Source: Sphingopyxis sp. PET50 (GTDB lineage Bacteria > Pseudomonadota > Alphaproteobacteria > Sphingomonadales > Sphingomonadaceae). From it: a DNA stretch of 64,000 bases. This document shows positions 26,520 through 46,284 of this stretch, piece after piece. The position numbers and the translations under genes are program-made. The stretch spans positions 2,108,001 through 2,172,000 of the forward strand of contig NZ_CP104207.1 in NCBI RefSeq assembly GCF_025244705.1. The letters run 5' to 3'. Below the pieces are notes generated by a model, which worked only from the letters and a program-made list of their open reading frames with translations, was not told the origin of the DNA and did no database searches. Every line of letters starts with the position of its first letter. Within the stretch, counting starts at the first letter, position 1.

Positions 26520-26600
26520 CGGGGTCAGGCTAGCAGGCAGGGGTTAAGATGAGGTGGCCGGATGGACAAGCGGGTTGGCCGGTTTGGGGCGGGAGCTGCC

Positions 26601-26675
26601 GTTCCCCGGCGCAAGCCGGGGTCCATGAGGAGTGGGCAGTGTTTGGTATCTGGGCCCCGGCTTGCGCCGGGGAAC
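26601..26675. repeat. Perfect 21-bp inverted repeat, 33-bp spacer
   Basis: GTTCCCCGGCGCAAGCCGGGG at 26601-26621 and its complement at 26655-26675, in the 337-bp gap (26520-26856) between the amidotransferase and the FemAB/GNAT-like gene. Each arm is itself a small palindrome (CCCCGGCGCAAGCCGGGG). No gene lies in this gap. Confidence 0.85.
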
Positions 26676-26724
26676 GGGTGGGCTGAAACAAGGCAATCGC
26701 GGTCAAGCCGCCCCATGAATCCCG

Positions 26725-26797
26725 TTCGTGTCGAGCGAAGTCGAGACACCCGAAGGCGCACGCGGCCGATGGGTGTCTCGACTTCGCTCGACACGAA
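26725..26797. repeat. Perfect 27-bp inverted repeat, 19-bp spacer
   Basis: Arms at 26725-26751 and 26771-26797, built on GTGTCGAGCGAAGTCGAGACAC. It lies in the same gap as the repeat at 26601-26675. It could terminate the amidotransferase transcript. The GAGCGAAGTCGAG word also appears near 19950. Confidence 0.85.
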
Positions 26798-26856
26798 TGG
26801 ACATAGAGGACAGTCCGCTCCCCGCTCCAAAGCCGACGTCCGCCCACGAATTCCGA

Positions 26857-28753
26857 CTAAATCCCGAACAGCTTCGCCAGCGACTTTTCCAGCATGAAGA
26901 ATTGCCAGATCAGCCGCCCATGGTCGCGGCGCCCCGACTGGTGCGCCGACACGATGCGCTCGATCTCGGCCATGTCGAACCAGCCCGAACGCGCGAGGGT
27001 CGATGAGGTCGCGAGCGCCCGCGCCTGCTCGACGAGCGCGCCGCGGAACCAGTGCGATACCGGGGTCACGAACCCCATCTTGGGGCGGTAGAGAATGTCG
27101 TGCGGCAGATAGCGTTCCATCGCCTGCTTCAGGATCGCCTTGCCCGTGCCGCCCTTCACCCGCATCGACGCGGGCAGCGAGGCGGCGAATTCGACGAGGC
27201 GATAGTCGAGCAGAGGCTCGCGCGCCTCGATGCTCACGGCCATGCTCATCCGGTCGGTCTTGGTCAGGATGTCGCCGGGCAGCCAGATCATCAAATCGGC
27301 ATATTGCGCCCGGTCGAGCGGCTCGCGCGCGGGTGCATCGGCCATCGCCTTCCAGTAGCGCGCCTCCGCGACATGATCGCCCAGAGCCGTCTTCGCCGCA
27401 TCGTTGAACAGCCGCGCGCGCTGGCCGGGGCCAGTGACGCCAACGGCCTCCGCATAGCCCTCGGCGCCGCTCTTCGACAGGCTGGCGAGCGTCGCCCTCG
27501 CCCGCAGGGGGCGCGGCGCCCAGTCCATCTGCGGCCAGACCTTCGCGAGCGGGCCGAGCAGATTGCGGCGCAGCACAGCGGGGATCAGCCCGCGCAATTT
27601 CTCTTCCTGATGCTGGAACACCAGCCGGCGATAGCCGCGCGAACGCCTCGTCGGCACCGTCGCCCGACAGCGCCACCGTCACCTCCTCGCGCGCGAGTTC
27701 GCACACGCGGTATGTCGGCAAAGCGCTGGCGTCGGCAAAGGGTTCGTCGAACATATCGGCGATCCTGTCGACCAGATCGAAATCCCCCGACGACACGGTG
27801 CGGGTGCGGTGGTCGGTCGCGAAACGTTCGGCGATCGCCTGTGCATATCCGGTTTCGTCGAGCGCCGCCTGGTCGAAACCGATTGTGCAGGTCTTGACCG
27901 CCTTGCTGCTCGCCTCGGCCATCAGCGCGACGACGGCGCTGCTGTCGACCCCGCCCGACAGGAAAGCCCCGAGCGGCACGTCGGCGACCATGCGGTCGAT
28001 CACGGCGGCGCGCATCAGATGGACCAGATGTTCGGCGGCCTCGCCTTCGCTCGCCCGGATGCGCTTCGAAAAATCGGGCGACCACCAGCGCGTCGGCGCG
28101 GGCACCGGCTTGCCGCGTTCGAGCAGCAGATAATGGCCGGCGGGCAGCTTCTGCACGCCCGCGACGATGCAATTGTCGTCGGGGACATAACCGAGTGCGA
28201 GGAAATCCTCGACCGCCGACAGATTCGCTTCCTGCCGCAGCAGCGGGTGGCGCAGCAGCCCCTTCAGTTCCGACGCGAAGGCCAGCGAGCCGTCCGACAG
28301 CCGCGCATGGTGCAGCGGCTTCACCCCCAGCCGGTCGCGGGCGAGGAACAGGCATTGGCGCCGGTGATCGTGCAGCGCGAAGGCGAACATGCCGTTGAGA
28401 CGCGAGAGGCATTCGACGCCCCATTGGCGCCACGCCGCGATGATGACCTCGGTATCGCCGCTGGTGCGGAAACGGTGCCCGCGCTCCTCCAGTTCGGCGC
28501 GCAGTTCGGGGAAATTATAGATTTCGCCGTTGTAGGTCAGCGTCACCGTCTCGTCGTCCGACGCCATCGGCTGCGGACTGCCCGCGACGTCGATGATCGA
28601 CAGGCGCAGGTGCGCGAGGCCGACGCCGGGCGCGGTCCAGGTGCCGCTGCCGTCGGGGCCGCGGTGTGCCATCGGATGGAGCATCGCGCGCAGCCGCGCC
28701 GGATCGACCGGCTTTGCCGTGTCCAGATGATAAAGGCCCGCGATGCCGCACAT
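26857..28753 (-). CDS. XrtA/PEP-CTERM system amidotransferase (asparagine synthase-like), one frame break
   Basis: A homologue of glutamine-hydrolysing asparagine synthetase, about 631 residues. Cys2 of MCGIAGLYHL is the Ntn nucleophile. AHRGPDGSGTW, NGEIYNFPEL and SGDTEVI complete the glutaminase domain. The synthase domain has FLSGGVDSSAVVALM (PP-loop SGGxDS), ALSGDGADEAF, TKTDRMSMAVSIEAREPLLD and PKMGFVTPVSHWF. GCCGCGC at 27634-27640 breaks the frame; GCCGGC restores DEAFAGYRR. Directly downstream of xrtA (13 bp), it matches the amidotransferase 1 family of exosortase A loci, thought to amidate a sugar or its acyl modification. It is unlikely to be the housekeeping asnB. Confidence 0.9.
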
Positions 28754-28766
28754 ATTCGGCGAGGCT

Positions 28767-30283
28767 CTAGCGCAGTTTCAGCGCGCGGTCAGCCATCGCC
28801 TGCGCTCCGCCCGACGCGGAAACGAAATCCTTTATCGCCGGCGCGCCCCCTGCCCTTCCTCGCTCGACACGATCAGCGTTAGCGCGCGCGGATCGCCGCC
28901 GAACAGGCGCGCCCTGAGCCCGGCCAGTTTCGCGCCGCGCGGGCTGCCGGTCGCGGCGCCATCGACCACGTACCAGGTGGCGGCGTCGCGCAGCACCGGG
29001 CCGGGGTGCAGCAGCCGCTCGGTCTTGCCGCCGCCGATCGCGGGGAGCGCCGCGCTCCACGCCCACTCGCTGTCGGGATCGACCGCGCCCTGCCCGAAGG
29101 CGACGACCTCGCGCCCTTCGGCCTGCCGTTCATAGCCCCCCAGCGCGACCGCCACGCGGCGCCCACCGGCATCGGCGAAATGGCGCAGCGAGAGCCGGTC
29201 GGCACCGTCGAAGCGCGGTGCCCAGGGCGTGCCCCCGCCAATCGTTTCGGTCCAGCCGGCGGGAACCGCGATTTCCATCCCGGCCGGCAGCGGCGCCGAG
29301 CGCGCGCCGACGAGCGCGCTCCACCCGGCGAAAAGCAGCGGAACGGCGAGGGCGGCGGGCAGCACCGCCCTCGCCGCGCCCGCGAACCGGGGGACGGCAT
29401 CCAGCCCCCGCACATCGACCGCGACATCGTTCGCCGGCCGGTCGAACCAGCGCCGCGCCACCAGCATCACGATCAGGATGACGAGCCCGAAGAAGATCCA
29501 GCCATAGAAGATATGGTCGATCCCGCCCGCCGCCTCGATCCCCCAGATGTCGGCGGCGACCATCGTTCCCCAGGCGCGCAGCGCATTGGCGAGGATCGTC
29601 GTGGCGAGCGCGCTCGCGACGAAGACGATCCGCCGCGGCCAGCTTCGGAAACAGAGGTGCGCCGCGAACACCGAATAAGCGAGCATCGCGATCAGGAAAT
29701 TGACGCCCGAGCAGGCCTCCGCCACCTCGAAGAAACCCGCGCGCGTCGTGATGAACACGCCCTCCATCCGCGCTTCGAGCCCCGAAAGGTGAAGCAGCCC
29801 CATCGAAATATGCGCGGTGAGCGTCTGGAGCAGCGGCACCAGTTCCTCGCCGAACGGCACCAGCAGCAGCGCATAGGCGAGCGGAAAGAGCAGCCCGCGC
29901 ACCAGTTTCCCGCCCAGCGTCGCGGCGACCGCGCCCTGCAGCATCAGCATCAGCCCGAGCTGGCGGAACAGCCCGACCCCGGCGGCCTCGCCGACGAGCC
30001 ACACCAGCCCCGCCCCTGCCATCCAGATCAGCGCCGACCACCAGTAAACCGGCGTCAGCGGGCGCAGCAGCGCGGTCCGCTGCGACACCAGCCAGCCGAT
30101 CATCGGCACCATCAGCAGGCAATGGGTGAAGGTCGAGCTGTGCCACCAGATGCCCGCCATATCGGCAGCGTCGCGATAAAAGAGGGCGAGGATCGCCGCC
30201 GCCAGCCCGGCGAGGGCGATCAGATGCGATTGCCAGCGCGTCCAGCTTTTCGGCCGGGTCAGCCTCAGCGTGCCCGCCATCAT
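28767..30283 (-). CDS. xrtA: Exosortase A with fused C-terminal EpsI domain, one frame break
   Basis: A polytopic inner-membrane transpeptidase thought to recognise the PEP-CTERM signal and cleave or transfer its protein. About 8 transmembrane helices precede the catalytic elements: EACSGVNFLIAM (Cys), LANALRAWG (Arg) and DHIFYGWIFF (His). This is the expected C-R-H triad. The C-terminal 200 residues (WTETIGGGTPWAPRF, YVVDGAATGSPR) are an EpsI-like periplasmic domain, as in other sphingomonad XrtA proteins. A frame break near 28845-28857 sits in a G-rich run, not at a GCCGGC derivative; adding one G would restore EEGAGGAPAIKDF. The start ATG at 30283 overlaps the glycosyltransferase stop. Confidence 0.92.
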
Positions 30284-31486
30284 GCCGCGAGTCCCAGCAA
30301 TGGACCGAGCGGTGCGAGCCGGGCCTCCCAGCCATAACGCGCGATCATCCGCGCCCGCGCCGCCGCGCCCATCGCAGTCGCGCGCGCGGGATCGTCGAAC
30401 AGCGCCGAAACCGCCTCCGCGATGCCCGCCGCGGTGTCGGCGACCAGCAGATGCTCGCCCGGCGCGGCGTCGATGCCCTCGGCGGCGGCGGCGCTCGCGA
30501 CGACGGGCCGCGCCATCGCCATCGCTTCGAGCAATTTGTTCTGGATGCCGCGCGCGAGCAGCAGGGGCGCGACCACCGCATCGGCGGCGGCGAGCCAAGG
30601 GCGGACGTCGGGCACTTCGCCGGTGACGATCACGCCGGGCAGCGCGGCGAGCGCCCGGACCTCGTCGGTCGGCGCCCGGCCGACGATCGCAAAGCGCGCA
30701 GCGGCATGATCGCGGCGGATCAGCGGCAATATGTCATGGGCGAACCAGCGCACCGCGTCGATATTGGGGCGATAGTCCATCTGGCCGGTGAACACCGCGA
30801 GCGGGCCTTCGCCCTGCCCCACCGCATCGTAGGCCAGCGACGGATCGAACCGGTCGGTGTCGATGCCGTTTTCGACCGCACGCACGCGATCCCCGGCCAG
30901 CCCGCTGCGCGCGCCGAACAATTTTGCCTCGGCGGCACTGACGAACAGGCTGGCATCGACGCGCGCCGCAACCTCCGCCTCATAGGCGCCGAGCCGGTCG
31001 GCCTCGCGCGCATGGACCCAGTGGAGCGGCTGGCGCTTGTCCTGCGCCGCGTAGGTCGCGAACTTGGCCGAATCGACGTCGACGAAATCCATCAGGATGG
31101 GGCTCGGCGAAATCGTCGGGCAGATATTGCGCCATCTGGCCCGAGAAAGCGACGATATGGGTGATCTTGCCCTGCCCCAGCAGGCCGCGGACATGGCGGG
31201 CGAGCGCGGCATTGCGGAACAGGCGGTTCGAAACGGGCTGGCCGCGCAGCACCGCCGCCGCGAGCGCGAGCGGGCGGGAGACGTTGCGCACTTCGATGCG
31301 CAGGCTCTTGCACAGCGGCGCCATCTTGCCGCGCGCGACCTCCGCCTCGGCCTCATTGTCGGCGAGCGCGGCGACATGGACGGGGGCGAGCTTCGCCAGC
31401 GCCTCGAACATATGCCAACTGCGGATACGGTCGCCGCGGTCGGGGGGCCAGGGCGCGCGGTGGACGAGGAACAGGATTTCGGGCAT
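30280..31486 (-). CDS. XrtA-associated glycosyltransferase, one frame break
   Basis: A GT4-type glycosyltransferase of about 400 residues, of the PEP-CTERM-associated family (TIGR03087-like). The N-terminus MPEILFLVHRAPWPPDRGDRIRSWH binds the acceptor. The C-terminal Rossmann domain has VFTGQMDYRPNIDAV, GRAPTDEVRALAALPGVIVTGEV, and a nucleotide-sugar site LLLARGIQNKLLEAMAMARPVV-like E-A-M-A. GCTCGGC at 31102-31108 breaks the frame; GCCGGC gives DDFAGPILMDFVDVDS. It overlaps xrtA by 4 bp (ATGA). It probably adds a sugar to the exopolysaccharide precursor on the cytoplasmic face. Confidence 0.88.
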
Positions 31487-31593: not shown

Positions 31594-32640
31594 TCACCCC
31601 AGCCCGCGCGCGATCAGCGGTCCGATGCGGTTCGCCGCCCACAGCGGCAGTTTTTTCCACAGGTCGACCTGCAGCCGGTATCTGGCGCTGGTCGGATTGG
31701 TATCGCGCGGGCGCTGGCCCGGTGCGAGCCAACGGGCATAGGTCAGCGGTTCGGGCTCGAAGCCCCAGTTCTTCTTATAGGCGAACGGGCCGGTGCCGAG
31801 CTTCGAGCGGCCGAAGTCGAAGCGGGTGCAGCCCTTAGCGCGGGCGTGGTTCATCAGCGCGAAGTACATCAGCTCGTTGGCGCGCTGGGTGCGCGCGGAG
31901 GCGAGGCCGCCGCCCCAATAGGGCATGACGGTGCCACGCCAGTACAGGCTGAGCACGCTCGCCACCGCCTCCCCGCCGCCATGGACGGTCAGGATGTCGG
32001 CCTTGTCGCCAAGGGCATCGAGAACGCAGGCGAACAACGCCTTGGGAAAGACGGGTGTACCCAGATTGCGGACGCTGGTCGCATAGACGCGATAATGCTC
32101 GGCACGATGCGCGGCGTCACTGCCGGTCGCGACTTCGAGGTCGCCGCCAAGCGCCTTACGGACCTCGGCGCGCTGCTTGCGGGGGATGGCGAGGAGTTCG
32201 GCCTCCTCATCCCGCGCAAGGTCGCGGGCGAAGCCGGCGTAGACGCCCTCTTCGACATGCCAGCCGTCGGGCAAGGGGCCGCCGCGCAGTTCGATCGACG
32301 GAACGCCAAGCGAGCCCGCAAGGTCGATCGCGGCGTCGGCGAGGACGGCGGCGATGGCGGGGCTGTCGGCGAGGATGCCGCCGCCGACCGCGAAGCCGCT
32401 CGCGACCAGCGCCTGCCCGAACAGGGGCGAGCGGACATGGTGGAGCGGCAGGATACCGGTGATGCAGCCAACGGCGTCGCGCTGCGCGATCAGATGATGC
32501 TTGTGGCCGGTCGCCCTGGTGATCGCCTCGCACCAGGCGCGGGTGTGAAAGGGCGTCGCCGCGGGATGCGCCGCGACATAGGCGTCCCATGCCGCCGCCT
32601 CGGTCAGCGGCGCGGGTACCGGATGGGCGGGCGCGTTCAT
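31594..32640 (-). CDS. FemAB family protein, XrtA/PEP-CTERM-associated
   Basis: A 348-residue tandem-GNAT protein, start MNAPAHPVPAPL at 32640, overlapping the deacetylase stop by 4 bp. The family core is GCITGILPLHHVRSPLFGQ, PRKQRAEVRKAL, PYWGGGLASARTQRANELMY and FDFGRSKLGTGPFAYKKNWGFEP. This matches the FemAB-like family specific to PEP-CTERM/XrtA loci (TIGR03019-like). FemX/FemAB proteins transfer aminoacyl groups from tRNA; in this setting an aminoacyl or acyl modification of the polysaccharide is likely but unproven. Confidence 0.92.
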   Translation of the reverse strand: MNAPAHPVPAPLTEAAAWDAYVAAHPAATPFHTRAWCEAITRATGHKHHLIAQRDAVGCITGILPLHHVRSPLFGQALVASGFAVGGGILADSPAIAAVLADAAIDLAGSLGVPSIELRGGPLPDGWHVEEGVYAGFARDLARDEEAELLAIPRKQRAEVRKALGGDLEVATGSDAAHRAEHYRVYATSVRNLGTPVFPKALFACVLDALGDKADILTVHGGGEAVASVLSLYWRGTVMPYWGGGLASARTQRANELMYFALMNHARAKGCTRFDFGRSKLGTGPFAYKKNWGFEPEPLTYARWLAPGQRPRDTNPTSARYRLQVDLWKKLPLWAANRIGPLIARGLG

Positions 32641-33498
32641 GCCGCCTGCCGCCATGCGACGGCACGCCCCTGCTGCGCGGGGAGCAGCGCGTCGGCGCGG
32701 GTCCATTCAAAATCGTCGAGCAATTTCCGAAGCTTGCTCGACCATGGCCGACAGGCCGCTGTAATGGCGAAGCTTCGATTTGAGCGGGGCGTCGGCGACG
32801 CGCGGCTGGCCGGGGTCGATTTCCCATGGGTGGAAATAAAGGATCGCCGGATGCCCCTCCGCATTCATGCGCGCGATCGCCCAGCGGGTGAAGCCATAGG
32901 GAAGCAGCCGCATGAAGCCGCCGCCGCCCGCCGCGAGCGTGCGCCCCGCGAAGCGCGCGGTGGTGACTGGCCATTCGACAAGATCGCTGTCGGGCAAGGG
33001 GCGCCAGGCGTGGCGCGGGCTGGCGGGCCAGCCATAATGATCGTGCGCGACCGGCGCGACGCTCGACGAATAGGCATAGCCCTGTTCGGCGAGGATCGGG
33101 TGCGCCCAGGGGGTGCGCTGATCCACCGAAAAGCTCGGCGCGCGATAACCGCGCACCGGAACCCCGCCGAGGTTTTCGAGGATCGCCCGCGTCTTTTCGA
33201 GGTCCGCGGCGAAGACCTCGGGCGTCATCTGGAACACGCGCTGATGGTCGTAGCCGTGGCTGGCGAGTTCGTGGCCCGCCTCGACGATCCGCCGGATCAG
33301 CGCGGGATAGCGTTCGGCAACCCAGCCGAGGGTGAAGAAGGTGCCCGTGACCCCGGCTTCGGCGAAGATGTGCAGCACTGCGTCGCAATTGGCTTCGACC
33401 CGGCATTCGAGCCCCGGCCAGTCGGCACGGTCGATCGTGCGCTCAAAGGCGCCGACCTGGAACCAGTCCTCGACATCGACCGACAGGCCGTTCTGCAT
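32637..33498 (-). CDS. XrtA-associated polysaccharide deacetylase, one frame break
   Basis: A NodB-fold enzyme of about 285 residues that removes acetyl groups from a polysaccharide. MQNGLSVDVEDWFQV carries the Asp-Val-Glu-Asp start, GTFFTLGWVAERYP is the metal-proximal strand, and HELASHGYDHQRVFQ gives the His-x3-His zinc motif. RGYRAPSFSVD and YFHPWEIDPGQPR complete the family pattern. GCTCGAC at 32736-32742 breaks the frame near the C-terminus; the downstream frame continues KLRKLLDDFEWTRADALL. It is translationally coupled to the FemAB gene. The protein has no signal peptide, as in other cytoplasmic PEP-CTERM deacetylases. Confidence 0.9.
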
Positions 33499-35236: not shown

Positions 35237-36964
35237 TCAGAAATTGTAGCGCAGGCCGACGAGCGCCGAGCCGATGAGCTGGCTGTTGAAGCCGTCCTGG
35301 TCGAAGCCGGTGATGCTGGCCGCCGCGCTGCCGGTCAGGCCGCGCCAGAAGCGCCGCGAATAGACCACCGAGCCGCCATAGGACTGAACGTCCGAGGCGT
35401 TCGGCGCGCCATTGTCGAAATAATTGTAGAAGGCCGCGAGCGACAGGTCGGCGTCGCGACCGAGCTGGCGCCCGATCGAGGCGAAGAGATAGTAATTCTC
35501 GTCGATCGTCCCGTTGAGCGCGCTGATGTCCGACAGCGCGGGCACGAGCAGGCGGCGGCGGTCGTAGCCGGCACCGACGCCATAGCTCCACGCGCCGGCT
35601 GCGCGGCTGGTGAAGATGCCCTGGATGCCGCGGCTGCGGAACTGCGCGCCGGTCGCGTTCGACAGCGCATTGTTGAGGCAGCCGCCGCCCTGTGCGCCGA
35701 ACTGGCAGCTGTTGATGTCGCCGTCGATCGGATTGCGCGTCGGGTCGAACTGCGTCGGCAGGCCCGCGAGCCCGGCCGACAGGCCGCGTCCGAAGCTGGA
35801 AATGCCGTCATAGACGCCGATCTGGATCTGGGTCGCGTGGCCGGGGCGGTAATAGAAGCTGCCGGTATAGATGGTGTCGCCATAACGGCGGCCGACGCGC
35901 GCGGTGAGCGAGGTGCGACGGCTGGGCTGCCACATCACCCCGGCGTCCCAGATCAGCCCGTCGGTGTCGAACGACAGCTGGCGCGGGCTCGACTTGTCGG
36001 TGACGAAACGGCCGTTGGCGTCGCGCACCGGCACGCCGTTCGCATCGACGACGGCGTTGCGCTCGCTGATCTCGATATCCTCGTAGCCGACGCCGCCGAG
36101 CAGCGCGACAGTCGGGCCGATCGGCACGGTCACGTCGGCGCGGGCATATTTGCCGTCGAACCGCTGATCGAGCTGGCTGGCGTCCTCGCGCTCGTAGCCG
36201 CCCGACACCTGCCAGCCGAAAGGCAAGTCGCCGGGCCGCTGGCCGACGCTGGCCCAGGCGACATGGTTGGTCGAGCTGTCGAAGATATCCTGGCTGACCG
36301 AACCCGGCGCGACGAGCGCGGGGGTTTCGACATCGACCTTGTTATAGCCGAAGCGATAACCGGCGCCGACGTCGAGCCCGCCGATGCGGCGCGCGAAGGT
36401 CGGCCCGGCATAGACGGAATAGACGTTGGCGACGTTCGAGCCGTTGCCGACGAAGATGCTGTTGTCGGCACCCTGTCCGTCGGCACGGCTGCGCGTCGCG
36501 AGCGCCCCGGCCTCCAGATTCAGGCCGCGCGCCAGTTCGTAGCGCCCGCGCAGCAGGCCGCTGATCGTGTCCGAATCGCCGAGGCCGCCCGATTCGCCGA
36601 TGCGATATTCGTAGCGGAGCGTGGCCGCGACTTCGGCGCGGCGCGTCGCGACGACCGCATCGACCCCGGCGGCGAGCGTCGTATAGGTGAGCACGTCGCC
36701 GCCGTTCTTCAGGTCGGCCTGAAGCACCTGGCCGATTTCGAGATAGGGCGTGACCTCGACGCTGCGCTTGCTGCGGCGTTCGCCGCGCTTGTCGCGCTTG
36801 CCGCTGTCACTGCCTTCGGCCGATGCCGGCGCCGAGGCGCTGTCGCCGTCGCCGCCGCCTTCGGGGCCCGAAAATTGCGCGTGCGCGCTCGTCGCCGTGC
36901 CCGCGAGGAGCAGCGCCGCGAGCGTCATGACGCCACGCCGGGCGCAGGGGAGAGTGGTGCGCAT
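35237..36964 (-). CDS. XrtA-associated outer-membrane beta-barrel protein
   Basis: A 575-residue secreted protein (MRTTLPCARRGVMTLAALLLAGTATSAHA, signal peptide). A short acidic/Lys-rich linker (GKRDKRGERRSKRS) precedes about 16 amphipathic strands ending in LIGSALVGLRYNF with a terminal Phe, the outer-membrane barrel signature. It matches the PEP-CTERM-associated outer-membrane family (TIGR03016-like), found with the ATPase and tyrosine kinase. The role is presumed to be in export of the polysaccharide across the outer membrane. It starts 2 bp after the kinase stop codon. Confidence 0.88.
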   Translation of the reverse strand: MRTTLPCARRGVMTLAALLLAGTATSAHAQFSGPEGGGDGDSASAPASAEGSDSGKRDKRGERRSKRSVEVTPYLEIGQVLQADLKNGGDVLTYTTLAAGVDAVVATRRAEVAATLRYEYRIGESGGLGDSDTISGLLRGRYELARGLNLEAGALATRSRADGQGADNSIFVGNGSNVANVYSVYAGPTFARRIGGLDVGAGYRFGYNKVDVETPALVAPGSVSQDIFDSSTNHVAWASVGQRPGDLPFGWQVSGGYEREDASQLDQRFDGKYARADVTVPIGPTVALLGGVGYEDIEISERNAVVDANGVPVRDANGRFVTDKSSPRQLSFDTDGLIWDAGVMWQPSRRTSLTARVGRRYGDTIYTGSFYYRPGHATQIQIGVYDGISSFGRGLSAGLAGLPTQFDPTRNPIDGDINSCQFGAQGGGCLNNALSNATGAQFRSRGIQGIFTSRAAGAWSYGVGAGYDRRRLLVPALSDISALNGTIDENYYLFASIGRQLGRDADLSLAAFYNYFDNGAPNASDVQSYGGSVVYSRRFWRGLTGSAAASITGFDQDGFNSQLIGSALVGLRYNF

Positions 36965-36966
36965 GG

Positions 36967-37990
36967 TCAGGCGCCTCCTTGTCCGTAATAGGTGCCGAAG
37001 CGGCGGCCGCCCGGCGAGAATTTGACGCCGTTGAGCAGCAACTGGATGTGCGGGCAGGCGCCCATCAGGCCGATCGCGTCGCGCAGCGCGGATTCGAGCG
37101 TCTCGTCGGCGCGCACGACCATGATCAACTGGCCGACATGGTAGGCGAGCACCGCGGCGGGCGACGCCGCCAGCACCGGCGGCGAATCGAGGATGATGAT
37201 GCGGCCCGGCGCGCCCGCTTCGAGCTGCGTCAGCAGCCCCTCGGTGCGCGCCGACGCGAGCAGTTCGGTGTCGTGAGTGTGCTGGGCGCCGAGCGGGCAT
37301 CACCTTCAGCCCCGGAATGTCGGTCTGGATCAGGCAGTCGCCGAGCGGCAGATGCGGATCGGCGAGCGCGTCCATCAGGCCCGGGCCGTCCTCCAGCCCG
37401 AGCGCGTCGAGTACGCTGGGCTTGGCGATGTCGGCGTCGATCAGCAGCACGTCGTGATCGGCCTCGACCGCGAGGCTGAGCGCCAGATTGACCGCCGAGA
37501 AGGTCTTGCCCTCGCCGGGATTGGCCGAGGCGATCAGCACCCGGTGGCCGCGCGGCAGCACCGGGCGGCCGGGACCGCCGGCGAAGTTGCGGATGATCTC
37601 GCGCTTCACGATGCGATATTCTTCGCTGATGCCGGTCACCGCGGCGCCCGGCACGATCATGCCGCGCGCGGCGAGCCGGTCGCGGTCGATCGTTCCCTGG
37701 CGGCCCGGCACCACCGCGGGCGCGGCGCGCGCGACATCCTTGCGCGGCGAGGCCTTCGGCGCGGGTTCGACGACCGGGGCGGGCTCGGCGACGGGGTCGA
37801 GGATTTCGGCCTCGGGTGTCACCGGGGCTTCCGGCTCGGCCTTCTTCTTCACTTTGCCCTTGCGGACCGGTTCTTCGGGCACGCCCGACAGGTCGATCGT
37901 CGGCGCGCCCGCGGCGGGATCGGTGCCGAAGATGTCGGCGGCGCGTTCGAGCAGCGAGGGCGGACGCTTGACGGGGCGGTGTTCGTTCAT
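36967..37990 (-). CDS. XrtA-associated tyrosine autokinase (CpsD/Wzc C-domain-like), one frame break
   Basis: A BY-kinase of about 340 residues that controls polysaccharide chain length with the Wzz-like partner. The N-terminal 130 residues are Pro/Ala/Glu-rich. SANPGEGKTFSAVNLAL is Walker A, VLLIDADIAKPSV is Walker A' and IIILDSPP is Walker B. The C-terminus RRFGTYYGQGGA holds the Tyr cluster that is normally autophosphorylated, although this cluster is short. GCCGAGC at 37288-37294 breaks the frame; GCCGGC restores VMPAGAQHTHD. It lies between the outer-membrane protein (2 bp) and the chain-length regulator (12 bp) in one operon. Confidence 0.9.
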
Positions 37991-39605: not shown

Positions 39606-40265
39606 TCAGAACATGCTTTCGGGAATGATGATCACGTCGCCGGGCTGCAGCTTCACATTCGCCCGGATATCGCCGCGCTTGATCAGGTCGTTGAGGCGCA
39701 GCGCATATTCCTGCTGCTTGCCCGTCCCCTTGTCGTGGCGGACGAGGCGCGCCTTGTTGCCCGCCGCATATTCGCCGAGCCCGCCGACCGCGATCATCGC
39801 GTCGAGCACGGTCATGTTGGCGCGGAACGGGATCGACGCGGGCTTTTCGGTCGCACCGACGACGCGCACCTGCTGCGAGAAGGTGCTGTTGAAGCTGGTG
39901 ACGATCACGCTGACGATCGGGTCGGTGATATATTGGCTGAGCTGGAGCTTCAGGTCCTGCTGCAGCATCGTCGGGGTCTTGCCGACCGCGGGCATGTCGG
40001 TGATCAGCGGGGTCGTGATGCGTCCGTCGGGGCGTACCTGCACCTTGCCGCCGAGTTCGGGGTTGCGCCACACGAAGATCTGCAGCTCGTCGAGCGGGCC
40101 GATGATATACTCCTCGCCCGGCCCTTCCTGGCTCTGGACGAAATTCGCGCTGGGAAGCTGCGGCGCGGCGGCGCCGCCGCCCATGCAGCCGGTCAGCGCG
40201 GTCGCGGCGATGCCCGAAACCAGGGCGGTGCGCGCGGCGCGAAGGGCGGGGAAGGACGTCATCAT
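39606..40265 (-). CDS. XrtA-associated polysaccharide export protein (Wza-like lipoprotein)
   Basis: A 219-residue outer-membrane export lipoprotein. The lipobox is TALTGC (Cys about residue 27). The poly-export domain starts YIIGPLDELQIFVWRNPEL and has VRPDGRITTPLI; an SLBB domain follows (FSQQVRVVGATEKPASIPFRANMTVLDAMI) ending in QPGDVIIIPESMF. The ATG at 40265 has AGGAAAGG 7 nt upstream; TTG at 40268 is an alternative. It is the first gene of the export operon (40265 leftwards). It forms the outer-membrane portal together with the Wzz-like protein. Confidence 0.93.
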   Translation of the reverse strand: MMTSFPALRAARTALVSGIAATALTGCMGGGAAAPQLPSANFVQSQEGPGEEYIIGPLDELQIFVWRNPELGGKVQVRPDGRITTPLITDMPAVGKTPTMLQQDLKLQLSQYITDPIVSVIVTSFNSTFSQQVRVVGATEKPASIPFRANMTVLDAMIAVGGLGEYAAGNKARLVRHDKGTGKQQEYALRLNDLIKRGDIRANVKLQPGDVIIIPESMF

Positions 40266-40556
40266 CAAATCACCTTTCCTGCGGGCAAGGGCGCCGCCGC
40301 AGGCTAAATGCCCGCAGCGAAAGCCAATGCGTCAGGATCAGCGATGACGGAAAAGGGTGAATATACCGTTAGTAGTCGGCTAGGTTTGCGCCCCATTTGT
40401 CGGGATTTGTGCCGGTTTGGGACGGAAATGGGCTTTTCGTCCGTCGAGGAAATGCCGCATGTCCCCGCGAAGGCGGGGGACCCATCTCCTGCCGACCCGA
40501 AATGGCACCGACCGGTGATGGGCTCCCGCCTTCGCGGGAGCACACGGCTTTTTTGC
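40266..40556. other. Intergenic region upstream of the export operon
   Basis: About 290 bp between the decarboxylase stop and the export gene start, presumably containing the promoter of the export operon on the minus strand. It holds the dispersed hairpin of family 1 near its decarboxylase end. GCTAGG occurs at 40379-40384 in non-coding DNA. No gene is seen. Confidence 0.5.
40463..40538. repeat. Dispersed hairpin element, family 1 (copy 2)
   Basis: Arms CCCCGCGAAGGCGGGGGACCCATC (40463-40486) and the near-complement ending GGGCTCCCGCCTTCGCGGG (about 40514-40538). The spacer contains AAATGGCACCGACC. It is the same element as 4826-4902, with two small differences in the arms. It lies just downstream of the decarboxylase and could act as its terminator. 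Confidence 0.82.
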
Positions 40557-41787
40557 TCAAACCAGCATCTCCTTCGCCTAGCCCCTGCCCCAGAAAGGCC
40601 GAGGGGCTGGCGGTCGCGCCATAGGCGCCCGCCTGGAAGATCGCGATCAGGTCGCCGACCTCGCCGCGCGGGAGCGCGACCTGATCGCCGAGCCGGTCGA
40701 GCGGCGTGCAGAGGCAGCCGACGACCGATACCGTCTCGACCGGCTCCTCCCCGAAGCGGCTGGCGAGCGCGATCGGATAGTTGCGGCGGATCACGGTGCC
40801 GAAATTGCCGCTCGCGGCGAGCTGGTGATGGAGGCCGCCGTCGGTGACCAGGAAGGTCTCGCCATGGCTGGTCTTCCGGTCGACGATCCGCGTCAGATAG
40901 ACGCCGGCCTCCGCCACGAGCCAGCGGCCGAGTTCCATCGCGAAGCGGCTCTGCCCCAGCATCGGGTCGCGCGCGGCGAGCGTCGCGGCGAGCGCATCGC
41001 CGACCGCCTTCGCGTCGACCGCGCTGTCGCCCGGGAAATAGGGAACGCCCATGCCGCCGCCGAGGTTGACGAGCGGCGGCACCGCGCCGATCTCGTTCGC
41101 CAGCCGCGCGGCAAGCGCGACCGTCTGCGCCTGGGTTTCGGCGATGGCCCCGGCATCGAGGGCCTGCGATCCGGCGAAAATATGGAAACCCCGCCAGTCG
41201 GCACCGGCATCGAGCAGGCGGCGGACGAGCGCGGGCACCTCGGCGGCATCGACCCCGAAGGGCTTGGCGCCGCCGCCCATCTTCATCCCCGACCCCTTGA
41301 GATCGAAGTCGGGATTGACGCGCACCGCGAGCCGCGGGACGATGCCGAGCCGTGTGCCGATGGCGAGCGCGCGTTCGGCCTCTCCCGCCGATTCGAGGTT
41401 GAGCGTCGCCCCGGTCTTGATCGCATATTCGAGTTCGCGGTCGCGCTTGCCCGGCCCGGCGAAGCTGATGTGTCCCGCCGCCATGCCGCTGGCGCGCGCG
41501 GCCCTGAGCTCGCCGCCCGATGCGACGTCGAGCCCGTCGACCATCGCCGCCATATGGCCGAGCAACGGGCCATAGGGGTTCGCCTTCATCGCATAATGAA
41601 GCTGGACCTCGGCGGGCATGGCGGCGCGCCATTCGGCGACGCGCGCGGTGAGCATGTGCGAATCATAGACGAAGAGCGGCGTATCGCCGGCATCCTCGGC
41701 GAGGGTGTCGGCGCGCTGGCCGCCGATCAGCAGCATGCCGTCGGCGTCGGCGGCGAAGCCGGGCGGGATCGGGCCGTGCGGTTTCAT
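40557..41787 (-). CDS. XrtA-associated pyridoxal-dependent decarboxylase, one frame break
   Basis: A fold-type III PLP enzyme (diaminopimelate/ornithine decarboxylase family) of about 409 residues, start MKPHGPIPPGF at 41787. Key blocks are VQLHYAMKANPYGPLL (PLP Lys in Y-A-x-K-A-N), ELRAARASGMAAGHISFAGPGK, NLGGGMGVPYFPGDSA (Gly-rich phosphate loop), and VVGCLCTPLDRLGD, whose Cys lies in the active site. It matches the PEP-CTERM decarboxylase family (TIGR03099-like). GCCTAGC at 40576-40582 breaks the frame 7 codons from the end; GCCGGC gives GQGPAKEMLV and TGA at 40557. In the raw sequence it is fused to the ligase upstream, which I take as an artefact. Confidence 0.9.
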
Positions 41788-43309
41788 GCCGCGACCTTCC
41801 AGCCGCATGGCGATCGCGACGCGGTCGAGCTTGCCGTTCGGATTGCGCGGCAGTTCGCCGCGCCATTCGATCGTCCGGGGCTGCATGAAATTGGGCAGGT
41901 TGGCCTTGAGATAGGCGGCAAGCGCGTCGCGGTCGGCATCGCCCTTGCCGCGCACGATCAGCACGATCGCGGCGCCGAGCCGATCGTCGGGCACCCCGAA
42001 AGCCACCGCCTCGAAAATCTGGCCCGAGGCCACCGCTGCATCCTCGACCTCGGTCGGGCTGACGCGGTTGCCCGCGGTCTTGATCATCGCATCGTCGCGG
42101 CCGACGAAAGTGAGCAGGCCATTGGCATCGCGGCGCACCGTGTCGCCCGACCAGACCGCGATGCCGCCATAGCGCGACGCGCGCGGCGCGGGCCGGAAGC
42201 GTTCGGCCGTGCGCTCCGCATCGCGCCAATAGCCCTGCGCCACCAGCGGCCCGCAATGGACCAGTTCGCCCGGTTCCTCATCCGCCGTGATCGTGCCGTC
42301 GGGGCGGCAGACGAGGATTTCGGCATGCGGGATCGCGCGGCCCATCGAGGTCGGATGGTCGGCAACTAGCCTGGGTTCGAGCCAGGTCGAACGGAAGGCC
42401 TCGGTGAGGCCGTACATCGGATAGATGTCGGCGTTCGGGAAGGTCGCGCGCATCGTGTCGATCAGCGAGGGGGTCAGAGCCCCGCCGCTGTTGGTCAGGC
42501 GTTTCAGATGCGCCGCGGTGTCAGCGGGCCATTCGCTTTCGACGAGTTGTACCCAGAGCGGCGGCACCCCGGCGAGTGTCGTGACGCCGTGCCGCGCGAC
42601 CGCCTTCACGACGTCGCGCGGGGTCAGATAGTCGAGCGGCGCCACCGCGGCGCCCGCAAACCAGGTCGAAAGGAGCTGGTTCTGGCCGTAATCGAAGCTG
42701 AGCGGGAGCACCGCGAGAATGCGGTCGCCGGGAGCGATCTTCAGATAGGAGGCGACGCTTTCGGCGCCGAGCCAGAGATTGGCGTGGCTGAGCATCACCC
42801 CCTTGGGGCGCCCGGTCGAGCCGCTGGTGTAGAGGATCGCGGCAAGATCGTCGGGCTCGGCGAGCGACGGCGGAAGCCCCTGCCCGCCCGAATCAACGAC
42901 TTCCTCGCCGATCTTCAGATCCTGTACGGCGCATTCGGCGGGCAGGCTCGGCGCCGAGCGTGTCGCTCCGCGCCGCATTGGTGACGAGCAATTTCGCCCC
43001 GCTGTCGGCGAGGATATGCGCCACCTGCGGCGCCTTCAGCAGCGGATTGACCGGCACATGGATCAGCCCCGCGCGCGCCGCCGCGAGCGGCATCAGGCAC
43101 GCGAGCCGCGTCTTGGCGCTCCAGCTCGCGACCCGCTCGCCGGGCCCGCCCGCCTGTTCGAGCAGCCACGAGGCGAGCCGCCCGACGCCCGCGTCCAGTT
43201 CGCCAAAGCTCGTGACCCGATCGCCGATCAGCAGCGCGGGCGCGTCGATGGCGCCGCGGCGGGCGAGATGGTCGATCGGGCGCGAATATGGGTCCTGATT
43301 GTCGGTCAT
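41784..43309 (-). CDS. XrtA-associated acyl-CoA ligase (AMP-forming), two frame breaks
   Basis: An adenylate-forming ligase of about 510 residues (TIGR03098-like), start MTDNQDPYSRP at 43309. LAAILYTSGSTGRPKGVMLSH is the AMP-binding P-loop, PMYGLTEAFRSTWL the A5 motif, WSGDTVRRDANGLLTFVGRDDAMI the A7/A8 region, and LPRNPNGKLDR supplies the catalytic Lys. GCTCGGC at 42946-42952 breaks the frame (GCCGGC gives LGAGLPAEC). Near 41802-41811 the frame shifts again. Reading GCCGGC there ends the protein with AGWKVAA and a TGA overlapping the decarboxylase ATG (ATGA). It probably activates an acid for transfer to the acyl carrier protein at 44369. Confidence 0.88.
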
Positions 43310-43344
43310 CGGTTCTTAGGAGTGTGGTGATAGAGCGCCAGCCT

Positions 43345-44361
43345 ATGCAAGGGAACGGTGAACATCGCGCTAATGATATGGCGGGGCTGCCCGCCGACGC
43401 GCGCGCGGCGGCGCCCGCGTCGCCGTTCGACCGCGCGGCCTGGTTCGACTTGCTGGCGGCGCACGGCTTTGCCGGCGAAGGGCGATTCGACGCCCATGGC
43501 GAGGCGGGGTCCGTCGCTGCGTGGCTGCCGCTGCGCCGCGATCACGCGGGGCAGTATAGCGGCCTCGCCAACTGGTACAGTTTCTCGATCCGGCCCTTGT
43601 TCACCGGCCCCGCCCACCCGGGCGAACGCGGCGCGGCGCTGCGCAAGCTGTTCGTCCGCCTGCGCGGGCGCGCGGCGCGGCTGACGCTGTACCCGGTGCC
43701 GGAGATCGAGGGCGTCCACGAGGAGGTGCGGATCGCGCTGCGCAAGGCCGGCTGGTGGGTCAAGGCGGTCCCGGCGGGCGACCGCCACTGGCTCGATCTT
43801 GAAGGAATGACCCACGACCAATGGTGGGAAAGCCGCCCCGGCGCGCTCAAGAACACCGTCAGGCGCAAGGCGAAGAAGGGAGTGGTCGATATCCAGCTGC
43901 TCACCACCTTCGACCCCGGCAGCTGGGCGGCCTATGAGAGCATCTATGCCGCAAGCTGGAAACCCGAAGAGGGCGACCCCGCGCTGCTGCGCGCCTTCGC
44001 GCAGGCCGAAAGCGGACGCGGGACCTTTCGCATGGGCATCGCCCGGATCGACGGGATTCCGGTTGCGGCGCAGTTCTGGACCGTCGAGGACGGCACCGCC
44101 TTCATCCACAAGCTCGCGCATGTCGAGGACAGTCTGAAGGCCTCGCCCGGAACCCTGCTGTCGGCGGCATTGTTCCGCCATGTCATCGAGACCGACAGAG
44201 TGAAACGCGTCGATTTCGGCACCGGCAACGACGCGTACAAGCGCGACTGGATGAACCGCCACGAGCCGCTGTGGCGATTGGAGGCTTTCAATCCGGCGCG
44301 CATCGCGGCATGGGGGCCCGCGATCAAGGCTTTTGCGCGCTCGTGGCTCGGGCGCGAGTGA
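43345..44361 (+). CDS. GNAT/FemAB-like acyltransferase at the XrtA locus
   Basis: About 338 residues of FemAB/GNAT type: PFDRAAWFDLLAAHGFAG, LANWYSFSIRPLF, GALKNTVRRKAKKGVVD, IAASWKPEEGDPALLRA-type residues, AAQFWTVEDGTAFIHKLAHVEDSLKASPGTLL and RVDFGTGNDAYKRDWMN. The N-terminal start is uncertain: ATG at 43345 is chosen, with GTG at 43327 and ATG at 43378 as alternatives. It is divergent from the acyl-CoA ligase (36 bp between starts). It is followed after 7 bp by the acyl carrier protein gene, so the enzyme probably uses the acyl-carrier-bound product. The closely linked FemAB genes at 31594 and 25315 suggest three different acyl transfers. Confidence 0.82.
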   Translation: MQGNGEHRANDMAGLPADARAAAPASPFDRAAWFDLLAAHGFAGEGRFDAHGEAGSVAAWLPLRRDHAGQYSGLANWYSFSIRPLFTGPAHPGERGAALRKLFVRLRGRAARLTLYPVPEIEGVHEEVRIALRKAGWWVKAVPAGDRHWLDLEGMTHDQWWESRPGALKNTVRRKAKKGVVDIQLLTTFDPGSWAAYESIYAASWKPEEGDPALLRAFAQAESGRGTFRMGIARIDGIPVAAQFWTVEDGTAFIHKLAHVEDSLKASPGTLLSAALFRHVIETDRVKRVDFGTGNDAYKRDWMNRHEPLWRLEAFNPARIAAWGPAIKAFARSWLGRE

Positions 44362-44368
44362 GGACAGG

Positions 44369-44653
44369 ATGACCGACACCCCCGCCACCGCCCCCGATAC
44401 AAGCGTCGATGCCACGCTGCGCGCGCTGCTCGCCGACATATTGGGCCTGGGCGAAGCCCGCGCCGCCGCGCTGACCGAGGACAGCGGCCTGTTCGGCGAA
44501 CTGCCCGAATTCGATTCGATGGCGGTCGCGACGGTGCTGACCGAGATGGAGGATCGCCTCGGCATCGTCATCGACGACGACGAGATCGACGGCGAGATTT
44601 TCGAAACCTATGGCAATTTGCTGGCCTTTTCGCTGCGCAAAGTGACCGACTGA
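44369..44653 (+). CDS. Acyl carrier protein, XrtA-associated
   Basis: A 94-residue acidic helical protein. FGELPEFDSMAVATVLTEMEDR contains the phosphopantetheine attachment Ser in D-S-M, at the normal place before helix II. Its acidic C-terminus (IDDDEIDGEIFETYGNLLAF) is typical. GAGGACAGG precedes the ATG at 44369. Placed between an acyltransferase and two hydrolases, with a ligase and PLP decarboxylase opposite, it is a dedicated carrier rather than the fatty-acid ACP. Confidence 0.9.
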   Translation: MTDTPATAPDTSVDATLRALLADILGLGEARAAALTEDSGLFGELPEFDSMAVATVLTEMEDRLGIVIDDDEIDGEIFETYGNLLAFSLRKVTD

Positions 44654-44683
44654 GGGCCGTTGGACCGGGTTCGCCTCCTCCTC

Positions 44684-44774
44684 CCGTTCGCCCTGAGCTT
44701 GTCGAAGGGCCGTTCTTTTCTTTCGATCGTTGAAAGGAAGAAGGACGGTCCTTCGACAAGCTCAGGACAAACGG
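44684..44774. repeat. Inverted repeat around the CCTGAGCTTGTCGAAGG motif
   Basis: GCCCTGAGCTTGTCGAAGGGCCGTTCTT (about 44689-44716) and its near-complement AAGGACGGTCCTTCGACAAGCTCAGGAC (about 44740-44767). The spacer is about 23 bp. CTGAGCTTGTCGAAGG is a dispersed intergenic motif common in sphingomonads and other alphaproteobacteria. It lies between the ACP and the hydrolase genes and forms a large hairpin in the transcript. Confidence 0.8.
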
Positions 44775-44805
44775 TTTCAGGGTTCGGTTGGTGAGCAGCG
44801 AAGCC

Positions 44806-45480
44806 ATGGCAACATCCGAACATCATCTGCGCTTCGAGCCCCCCGGCGCGCCGCACGCGACCGTCCTGATCGTCCCGCCGCTGTTCGAGGAAGCGAACCG
44901 CACGCGCCGCACTTTGGTGCTGGCGATGCGCGCGCTCGCGGCGCGCGGGTTCGCGGCGGTGATGCCCGACCTGCCGGGGCAGAATGAGAGTCTGGTGGCG
45001 CTGGAGGATGTCGACCTCGATACATGGCAGGCGGCGCTGGCCGGAGTTGCGGCGGAAATCGACGGCCCCGTGCTGGTCGCTTCCGTTCGCGGCGGGGCGC
45101 TGATCGACCATAAGGCGAAGGCGGCGGGCTGGTGGCGGCTGGCGCCGACCGGCGGGGCGTCGCTGCTGCGCACCTTGCTGCGCGCGCGCGTGGCCGCCGA
45201 CCGCGAGGCGGGCGTGGCCTCGTCGGTCGAGAGCCTGACCGAGGCGGCGAAAAGCGAGGCGCTGCTGCTCGCCGGCAATCGCCTGTCGCCCGCGATGATC
45301 GCGCAATTGGGAGCTGCGGAAGTGCAACCGGTCGAACCGCTGCGCAGCGTCGCGCTTGGCGCTGGCGGCATCGCGGGCACGCCGCTGTGGCTGCGCGCCG
45401 AACCGGGCGAGGATGCGGCGATGGCCGGGGCGATCGCCGACGATATCGCGGCCTGGGGGGCGGCATGCGGCGTCATCTGA
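44806..45480 (+). CDS. Hydrolase 2, exosortase A system-associated
   Basis: An alpha/beta-hydrolase-like protein of 224 residues. VLIVPPLFEEANRTRRTL and ALAARGFAAVMPDLPGQNES are the opening strand-loop pair of the XrtA hydrolase 2 family (TIGR03101-like). The nucleophile-elbow position reads VLVASVRGGALID, with Ser in S-x-R-x-G. ATG at 44806 is preferred over GTG at 44788. The stop overlaps the next gene by 16 bp. The substrate is unknown; it might release a product from the acyl carrier or trim an acyl group. Confidence 0.82.
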   Translation: MATSEHHLRFEPPGAPHATVLIVPPLFEEANRTRRTLVLAMRALAARGFAAVMPDLPGQNESLVALEDVDLDTWQAALAGVAAEIDGPVLVASVRGGALIDHKAKAAGWWRLAPTGGASLLRTLLRARVAADREAGVASSVESLTEAAKSEALLLAGNRLSPAMIAQLGAAEVQPVEPLRSVALGAGGIAGTPLWLRAEPGEDAAMAGAIADDIAAWGAACGVI

Positions 45481-46284
45481 ACTTCGCCTGCGAAGACGCC
45501 GCCCTCGCCGCGACGCTCGACGCGGCGCCGGGGGCGACCGGCCTCTTGATCGTGTCGGGCGGCAACGAGATTCGCAGCGGCGCGCATCGCGGCATGGCGA
45601 TGCTGGCGCAAAGGGTCGCCGAAGCGGGGCATCCCGTCTTCCGCTTTGATCGCCGGGGGATCGGCGACAGCGAAGGCGAAAACGGCGGCTACCGGTCGAG
45701 CGCCCCCGACATCGCCGCCGCCATCGCGGCGTTTCGCGAAGCGGCGCCGCAAGTAACGCGCGTGGTCGCGTTCGGCAATTGCGATGCCGCGAGCGCGCTG
45801 TTGCTGCACCAGCCGCTGGCACTCGAGGGACTGATCCTCGCCAATCCCTGGACCTATGAGGATGGCGACGGCGCGGAGGCGGACGAACCCGCCCTGCCCC
45901 CGGCGTCGGCGATCTCGTTCGCGCTATCTGGCGCGGCTGAAGGACCCGAGGAGCCTGCTGCGCCTGCTGAGGGGCGAGATCGACGTGCGGAAACTCGCGC
46001 GCGGACTGTCGGCGATGGGGCGCAAGCCCGCGGCACCCGCATCCGGCAGCCTGGCCGACGAGTTGGGCAGCCGCCTCGCGGAGATAGCCTGCCCGGCGAC
46101 GATCCTGCTCGCGACGGGCGATCGCACGGCGCAGGCGTTCATGGACAAATTGGCGCCGCTGCTGGCCCGAATCGAGGCGGATCCGGGAGCGGTCCGAACG
46201 GAACGGCTCGCCAGCCAGTCGCACAGTTTTGCCGGGGGCGACGCCGATTGGCTGGCGGAGCGCATCATCGCAGCCTTGCAATAG
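45465..46284 (+). CDS. Hydrolase 1, exosortase A system-associated, one frame break
   Basis: An alpha/beta-hydrolase of about 273 residues, start MRRHLNFACED at 45465. GLLIVSGGNEIRSGAHRGMAML and PVFRFDRRGIGDSEGENGGY are diagnostic of the XrtA hydrolase 1 family (TIGR03100-like). VVAFGNCDAASALLL stands at the nucleophile elbow, where Cys replaces the usual Ser. The frame breaks near 45918-45930, after ASAIS; the downstream part RYLARLKDPRSLLRLLRG is also typical. A single inserted T before CGTTCG would explain it, so this break is not clearly of the GCCGGC type. It is translationally coupled to hydrolase 2. Confidence 0.85.

Follow-up and report, generated by a model that had tools for sequence, protein, structure and literature searches.

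A conserved acyl-carrier gene set beside the exosortase A locus of Sphingopyxis sp. PET50 and its possible role in making a beta-amino acid

Introduction

What is made by the carrier-protein genes that adjoin an exosortase A (XrtA) locus in Sphingopyxis sp. PET50? The stretch analysed, 64,000 nucleotides of contig NZ_CP104207.1 (positions 2,108,001 to 2,172,000; here the window), holds at 40557-46284 six genes for an AMP-forming ligase, a pyridoxal phosphate (PLP)-dependent decarboxylase, an acyltransferase of the GCN5-related N-acetyltransferase (GNAT)/FemAB type, an acyl carrier protein (ACP) and two hydrolases. Genes of this unit occur beside or together with exosortase A in this class and in other classes of Pseudomonadota, and their names state just that they are 'associated'; the families that they belong to or resemble, TIGR03098 to TIGR03101 (exosortase A-associated), are listed as being of unknown function. 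One question that a concrete chemistry would open to direct test is whether the unit feeds a protein-sorting step or just decorates a polysaccharide.

No report on the chemistry of these genes was found in the open-access literature searched (for one survey, among the papers listed), and the accessible sections of papers on Sphingomonas exopolysaccharide (PMC11340318) and on PEP-CTERM floc formation (PMC9850573) hold nothing on them. The analysis gives this known, unexplained gene set a specific chemical proposal, the conversion of aspartate to beta-alanine on a carrier. That the product of the unit is a beta-amino acid held on a carrier and destined for a surface polysaccharide is, in our judgement, an evenly balanced proposition, and the particular conversion of aspartate to beta-alanine falls just short of an even chance.

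Results and discussion

Gene content and conservation of the unit

The six genes of the unit in the window are as follows.

40558..41787, minus strand: PLP-dependent fold-III decarboxylase (TIGR03099), BtrK/VinO-like; 549.1 bits, motif GCLCTPLDRL
41788..43309, minus strand: AMP-forming ligase (TIGR03098), VinN-like; TIGR03098 match in two frames, frame-broken
43345..44361 (start 43345 or 43378), plus strand: GNAT/FemAB-like acyltransferase; PF13480
44369..44653, plus strand: ACP; PF00550, with Ser50 in EFDSMAV
44806..45480, plus strand: hydrolase 2, TIGR03101-like; assigned by position and common residues, below the family cut-off
45465..46284, plus strand: hydrolase 1 (TIGR03100); Cys106 in a predicted Cys-Asp-His triad, frame-broken

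Profile matches confirmed all six genes, which a first-pass annotation made from the letters alone had placed together here, and the divergent arrangement that it described around 43309-43345 was also found (ligase ATG at 43309, GNAT start at 43345 or 43378). The genes for hydrolases 2 and 1 overlap by 16 nt, and the phosphopantetheine serine of the ACP, Ser50, is encoded at 44516-44518.

Conservation was examined in loci gathered in two ways. Named loci were taken around the best 80 of 554 hydrolase 1 relatives, whose titles are those of Sphingomonadales or of metagenome-assembled genomes labelled Alphaproteobacteria or Proteobacteria; 64 of these best 80 are longer than 18 kb (long named loci), a set selected by hydrolase 1. 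The ligase-selected loci come from 398 Pseudomonadota genomes (the phylum sample). Ligase matches of E 1e-100 or better marked 59 places, spread over 57 of these genomes, and every place but the window's own, 58 in all, was taken with its surroundings (up to 20 kb). For hydrolase 2, the profile came from the genes that immediately precede hydrolase 1.

Decarboxylase, ligase, ACP and hydrolase 2 were all present in 64 of 64 long named loci, which excludes chance assortment, and GNAT was detected in 49 of them; the gene order was that of the window in 62, the other two differing just in the called start of hydrolase 2. Of the 16 shorter named loci, six (4.6 to 9.9 kb) lacked at least one gene. 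Hydrolase 1 exceeded the 280-bit limit in 24 of the 58 ligase-selected loci, with hydrolase 2 directly upstream in 23 of these 24, overlapping or within 12 bases, and the serine following Asp was kept in 54 of 54 ACPs over the score limit (53 of the 58 loci plus the window). The joint conservation of ligase, ACP, decarboxylase and candidate transferases bears out the earlier view of a dedicated carrier-protein unit.

The gene set is thus real and conserved, though not a novel one: TIGR03098 to TIGR03101 find matches in four of its six genes, the match of hydrolase 2 being weak. The decarboxylase lies over the curated TIGR03099 cut-off of 478.45 bits. Frame breaks or divergence leave the other three of these four window genes below theirs: the ligase scores 548.3 + 87.0 bits, split by the frame break (TIGR03098 cut-off 592.35; 641.2 in the congener G214), and hydrolase 1 scores 166.9 + 37.3 bits, likewise split (TIGR03100 cut-off 168.45; 215.5 in G214). 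Hydrolase 2 reached 52.3 bits against the TIGR03101 cut-off of 202.75, and because of this low score it was assigned by its position and common residues.

Resemblance of the ligase to beta-amino-acid ligases

Because the window ligase is broken, searches of solved structures used the intact ligase of locus L044 (genome G301). The best single-stretch match of the whole protein was to 3wvn (184.6 bits), and the best summed score was that of linear gramicidin synthetase (164 + 119 bits over two domains). With the pocket alone (146 residues), the top eight solved structures comprised 3wvn/3wv4, 5jjq/5jjp and four labelled beta-aminoacyl-ACP synthetase; 3wvn/3wv4 are VinN and 5jjq/5jjp are CmiS6/IdnL1, entered in the table of matches just as synthetases. 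In VinN, Asp230 is the anchor of the amino group and Lys330 a carboxylate contact, and in the VinN alignment one offset fits both of these residue numbers as well as Arg331. The VinN-type Asp is present in L044 (SFDYG, aligned with SWDFG of VinN), in the window (SFDYG) and in 77 of 77 named ligases, while VinN Arg331 is matched in L044 (TEAFR, aligned with TECKR), in the window (TEAFR) and in 75 of the 77, the other two giving no match at this position. In a model of AfcQ, the equivalent residue Arg311 binds the alpha-carboxylate (PMC12186527). The pocket therefore appears closest, by its sequence, to those of beta-amino-acid ligases of the VinN type.

The prediction that this Arg would mark just those loci that have a decarboxylase failed, the residue being near-universal in the main ligase family. 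Loss of the Asp (L082, L084, L085, L088, L090 and L091) was confined to stretches without a decarboxylase.

Loading and decarboxylation on the carrier

Among solved structures the window decarboxylase matched BtrK best (227.7 bits), followed by diaminopimelate decarboxylase (127.3 bits), and BtrK and the window family have the motif CTPxD in common. The pattern was found in 72 of 74 named relatives and, in a slightly wider form, in 32 of the 39 decarboxylases above 400 bits in ligase-selected loci. The same genome has a second fold-III match that carries CETGD instead; this motif and a score of 177 bits mark it as probably LysA. Diaminopimelate, mentioned as a substrate in a TIGR comment, is made less likely by the absence of CETGD from the window decarboxylase.

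Three characterised systems offer precedents. BtrK acts on carrier-bound glutamate (PMC7857480), VinO decarboxylates after thioester formation (PMC11284099), and AfcQ, AfcK and AfcP convert L-aspartate to beta-alanine on a carrier in vitro (PMC12186527); VinN/VinO and AfcQ/AfcP both load (methyl)aspartate through its side chain and then decarboxylate it on the carrier. Since the decarboxylase is BtrK-like and the ligase keeps the Arg reported to bind the free alpha-carboxylate of aspartate in VinN-type enzymes, loading probably precedes decarboxylation, and on this sequence relationship the decarboxylation itself quite likely occurs on the carrier.

The first-pass annotation had reasoned in the opposite order, with a free amino acid decarboxylated first and a separate acid then activated and loaded. 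The fold family of the decarboxylase, which includes diaminopimelate, lysine and ornithine enzymes, and the NCBI name of the ligase, acyl-CoA ligase, would accord with that order. It is nevertheless highly improbable, as the closest solved relative, BtrK, acts on a carrier (PMC7857480), the decarboxylase lacks the CETGD of the probable LysA, and the ligase pocket, with its VinN-type Arg, is closest to those of amino-acid ligases. The earlier observation and its interpretation thus stand in part: the carrier unit is upheld and the reaction order is not.

The likenesses to these systems have limits. The AfcQ/AfcK/AfcP set of AFC-BC11 lipopeptide biosynthesis in Burkholderia also combines a VinN-type ligase carrying the Arg, a separate carrier and a PLP decarboxylase, whereas it serves a lipopeptide pathway with a fatty acyl-AMP ligase, and the accessible text mentions neither an exosortase nor a pair like hydrolases 1 and 2 (PMC12186527); AfcQ and AfcP are likened to the ligase and decarboxylase of the unit here by their published description. 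VinN/VinL/VinO of vicenistatin biosynthesis resemble the unit in the aligned ligase Asp and Arg (L044) and in decarboxylation after thioester formation (PMC11284099), and differ in that VinN Lys330 is Phe here and that the Vin enzymes feed a polyketide synthase. Of the butirosin pair BtrI/BtrK, BtrK stands nearest to the decarboxylase among solved proteins, has CTPxD as well and acts on a carrier-bound substrate (PMC7857480). The butirosin pair differs in that this substrate is glutamate. Its loading enzyme is a ligase of a different type.

Proposed pathway and candidate substrate

From the observed gene order, conserved residues, relatedness and co-occurrence we infer a substrate, a series of reactions and an acceptor. 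In the first step the ligase would adenylate the side-chain carboxyl of a dicarboxylic amino acid, L-aspartate being the likeliest, and load this amino acid onto the ACP, as the VinN-type pocket residues and the conserved ACP suggest. The decarboxylase would then remove the alpha-carboxyl on the ACP to give beta-alanyl-S-ACP with a free amine, by analogy with BtrK, VinO and AfcP. In the third step a transferase would hand the group on, the acceptor probably being the polysaccharide or its lipid-linked precursor, through an amine or a hydroxyl; the best candidate for this step in exosortase A loci is hydrolase 1 paired with the nucleophile-less hydrolase 2, with GNAT as an alternative or helper.

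The same carrier chemistry may act on another acid, either glutamate, giving gamma-aminobutyryl-ACP, or 3-methylaspartate, giving 3-aminoisobutyryl-ACP. MutE, the glutamate mutase, makes 3-methylaspartate, and its gene lies between decarboxylase and ligase in L071 (6013-10859; genome G014) and 1.3 kb from the ligase in G368 (C1, 71861-75863). A MutE neighbour in L071 is what one would expect if such ligases take an aspartate-type acid, and the position of MutE next to related ligases hints that the relatives in L071 and G368 use 3-methylaspartate; the use of carrier-bound glutamate by BtrK (PMC7857480) likewise speaks for another acid. MutE was, however, not found in 37 of the 38 exosortase or module genomes searched, the source genome included, which makes plain aspartate the likelier substrate in exosortase loci, and VinN-type enzymes with the same Arg take aspartate-type acids (PMC11284099, PMC12186527). 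A glutamate mutase belongs to the vicenistatin cluster, and the MutE search found none in the source genome. We consider another acid unlikely, though a substantial minority possibility.

Several observations weigh against the aspartate pathway as drawn. When scores are summed over two stretches, linear gramicidin synthetase and another peptide synthetase rank above VinN for the full-length ligase; the likeness to VinN is imperfect, as Lys330 is not matched and Phe stands at that position; and the Arg is retained even where the locus has no decarboxylase, and by six ligases without the Asp. By analogy with BtrK, whose substrate is glutamate, gamma-aminobutyryl-ACP is a possible product. GNAT was not detected in 15 of the 64 long named loci. 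Only its residues suggest a transferase role for hydrolase 1, and hydrolysis would fit them too; for Bcam1334, annotated as TIGR03100, the authors suggest a role in polysaccharide quality control (PMC3584217).

A cysteine hydrolase and its presumed partner

The elbow F-G-N-C of hydrolase 1 places a predicted nucleophile at Cys106 (codon 45780-45782), and the Cys in place of the usual Ser noted in the first reading of the sequence recurs in the named relatives. Cys, Asp and His were each invariant in 80 of 80 (the best 80 of 554 relatives) and in 23 of 23 sequences of alignment A1, the triad Asp and His of the window protein lying behind its frame break. One of the two search patterns behind the named set contains the Cys and biases that set towards it; the Cys was also present in 24 of 24 loci gathered through the ligase. 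Such a Cys-Asp-His triad suits an enzyme that would take an acyl group from a thioester.

In the window, the nucleophile elbow of hydrolase 2 carries Arg95 (45088-45090). Among the named relatives a Ser or Cys nucleophile was not found at the elbow; Arg stood there in 80 of 80 (81 aligned pieces, one protein giving two), as it did in 24 of 24 in a further comparison. In a structure model of the relative from L048 (predicted local distance difference test score, pLDDT, 93), Arg104 follows the strand that bears the nucleophile in this fold, and hydrolase 2 is probably a pseudoenzyme partner. Of the 'two unusual hydrolases' described earlier, then, hydrolase 1 has a full Cys triad and hydrolase 2 has no nucleophile.

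The model of the hydrolase 1 relative from L048 (pLDDT 89) had esterases and lipases as its nearest folds, and for both hydrolases the fold matches were of general kinds (esterase, lipase and thioesterase), with no discrimination. A Cys-triad enzyme beside a probable Arg-elbow pseudoenzyme, together with the proposed aspartate chemistry and the co-occurrence pattern described below, gives biochemists a concrete basis for testing what the unit does.

Distribution with exosortase A

The exosortase A locus lies at about 26-40 kb of the window by profile searches and contains XrtA, the FemAB protein of TIGR03019, a glycosyltransferase, a deacetylase, an ATPase, and chain-length and export proteins, among them the following.

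28832..30598, minus strand: exosortase A (XrtA, TIGR03109); 296.5 bits, cut-off 208
31594..32706, minus strand: XrtA-associated FemAB protein (TIGR03019); profile match
39606..40268, minus strand: XrtA-system polysaccharide export protein (TIGR03027); profile match

In the phylum sample, XrtA exceeded its cut-off in 35 genomes (7 weaker matches were not counted) and the decarboxylase in 30 (10 weaker ones, all without hydrolase 1, were not counted). There were 28 genomes with hydrolase 1, of which 27 were counted (25 over the cut-off, and G000 and G126 just below it), the one left out being G335, with a weak match (112.6 bits) and neither XrtA nor decarboxylase. Hydrolase 1 occurred in 27 of 27 genomes with both XrtA and decarboxylase, in 0 of 8 with XrtA only and in 0 of 3 with decarboxylase only. 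The FemAB protein of TIGR03019 was present in 35 of 35 XrtA genomes (33 over the cut-off) and in 0 of 3 decarboxylase-only genomes.

An order sample of 108 Sphingomonadales, which shares genomes with the phylum sample and includes three decarboxylases below the cut-off (G401, G424, G483), gave XrtA with decarboxylase in 46 genomes, 45 of them with hydrolase 1 (G483 being the exception), and hydrolase 1 in five further genomes (G414, G424, G428, G464 and G471). When the count is restricted to good genomes (completeness 90 percent or more, contamination 5 percent or less), hydrolase 1 is present in 38 of 38 with both genes, in 0 of 7 with decarboxylase only and in 1 of 22 with XrtA only (G464); the good genome G428 has hydrolase 1 alone. 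Being related, these genomes do not count as independent cases; a single family supplies 24 of the 26 XrtA-only genomes in the order sample. With few exceptions, hydrolase 1 tracks genomes that have both exosortase A and the decarboxylase.

This pattern makes it attractive to suppose that the amine made on the ACP, once on a lipid or glycan, acts as the nucleophile by which PEP-CTERM proteins are freed from exosortase A, with hydrolases 1 and 2 moving beta-alanine, or a short beta-alanine chain, to that lipid or glycan. The parallel would be pentaglycine, the nucleophile in sortase reactions. In the archaeal system, maturation that depends on ArtA requires PssA as well as PssD, a decarboxylase, and the authors, in a model that they themselves call speculative, propose an amine nucleophile, with archaetidylethanolamine as the acceptor (PMC7157517), to which a beta-alanyl acceptor here would be parallel. 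The 27 of 27 and 38 of 38 counts favour this supposition, the two samples overlapping. Against it, the decarboxylase is missing from 8 of the 35 XrtA genomes in the phylum sample and from 26 of the 72 in the order sample, so not every exosortase A requires the unit; hydrolase 1 stands alone in G428 and, weakly, in G335; the ligase-decarboxylase-ACP set lies in polysaccharide clusters whose incomplete gene tables list no exosortase nearby; and hydrolase 1 is annotated in a Burkholderia exopolysaccharide cluster for which the accessible text mentions no exosortase (PMC3584217). With so many exosortase A genomes lacking the unit, we regard both the nucleophile role and the transfer by the two hydrolases to such an acceptor as decidedly unlikely.

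Occurrence outside exosortase loci

On pSymB of Sinorhizobium meliloti (strain R28) and on pAU20a of Aureimonas, the decarboxylase and ACP lie among genes for glycosyltransferases, a polysaccharide deacetylase and an O-antigen ligase. A ligase is annotated in Aureimonas; none is listed in strain R28, where there is just a partial ligase open reading frame (ORF; 381 residues). No exosortase is listed in these 25-29 kb, the gene tables being incomplete and no exosortase search of these genomes having been made. These contexts tie the core of the unit to polysaccharides, in agreement with the link drawn in the first-pass annotation, and weaken the case for a strict exosortase role.

Bcam1334, a predicted hydrolase, belongs to the exopolysaccharide cluster of B. 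cenocepacia, and the accessible text reports no chemistry for it (PMC3584217). In Burkholderia cenocepacia locus L174 (8677-18851), ligase (700 bits) and decarboxylase (559 bits) exceed both TIGR cut-offs. Their neighbours are an ACP, three proteins like beta-ketoacyl-ACP synthase III (KASIII), two acyl-CoA-dehydrogenase-like proteins and a GNAT, in a metabolite-like cluster. A scan of ten neighbours for signs of the afc cluster found no fatty acyl-AMP ligase, citrate synthase or glycosyltransferase.

Other arrangements were seen among the loci examined. In L089 (5105-18704; G197) a fusion joins the decarboxylase to acyl-CoA dehydrogenase-like domains; the cluster around it also has more ligase-like genes, a cytochrome P450, an aldo-keto reductase and KASIII, and in three Tritonibacter plasmid records the matching protein is labelled acyl-CoA dehydrogenase family protein. 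A conserved protein of 289-295 residues precedes the ligase in L172 (11462-12349), L173 (9494-10363) and L041 (8270-9157), with pairwise scores of 345-392 bits; it gave no Pfam match and is GNAT-like by eye, and no exosortase is listed in these loci. In the exosortase genome G270, a VanZ + Wzy_C protein of 1062 residues lies between decarboxylase and ligase (L034, 6153-9341), and in G396, in which no exosortase A was detected, ACP, ligase and decarboxylase lie beside chalcone-synthase-like and thioredoxin-reductase-like genes (L050, 6522-9041).

State of the unit in strain PET50

The unbroken ligase and hydrolase 1 of Sphingopyxis microcysteis each match the window in two frames, the ligase to 42953 and from 42945, hydrolase 1 to 45914 and from 45925. 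The C-terminal part of the ligase and the decarboxylase form one ORF in the window, with no stop at the junction, whereas in all 74 of the named loci with calls for both, each has an ORF of its own; the decarboxylase ORF continues to 40369 in this assembly. The two breaks and the missing stop might mean that strain PET50 carries a unit in decay or one that is already dead. The window genes nevertheless keep 71-90 percent identity to the unbroken S. microcysteis genes (62 percent at the end of hydrolase 1), the source genome, one contig of 3.8 Mb, is just 87 percent complete, and genes of the exosortase locus outside the unit are also partial family matches. Taken together, the partial matches outside the unit, the low completeness and the retained identity fit assembly error better than decay; the frame breaks and partial matches are probably such errors, and a dead unit is very improbable. 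The partial matches are those to an amidotransferase (residues 1-372 of 628) and a tyrosine kinase (2-126 of 207) within 26525-28753 and 35237-37990. Inverted repeats resembling repetitive extragenic palindromic elements were seen by eye between genes of the window, at 44680-44790 and 40470-40545.

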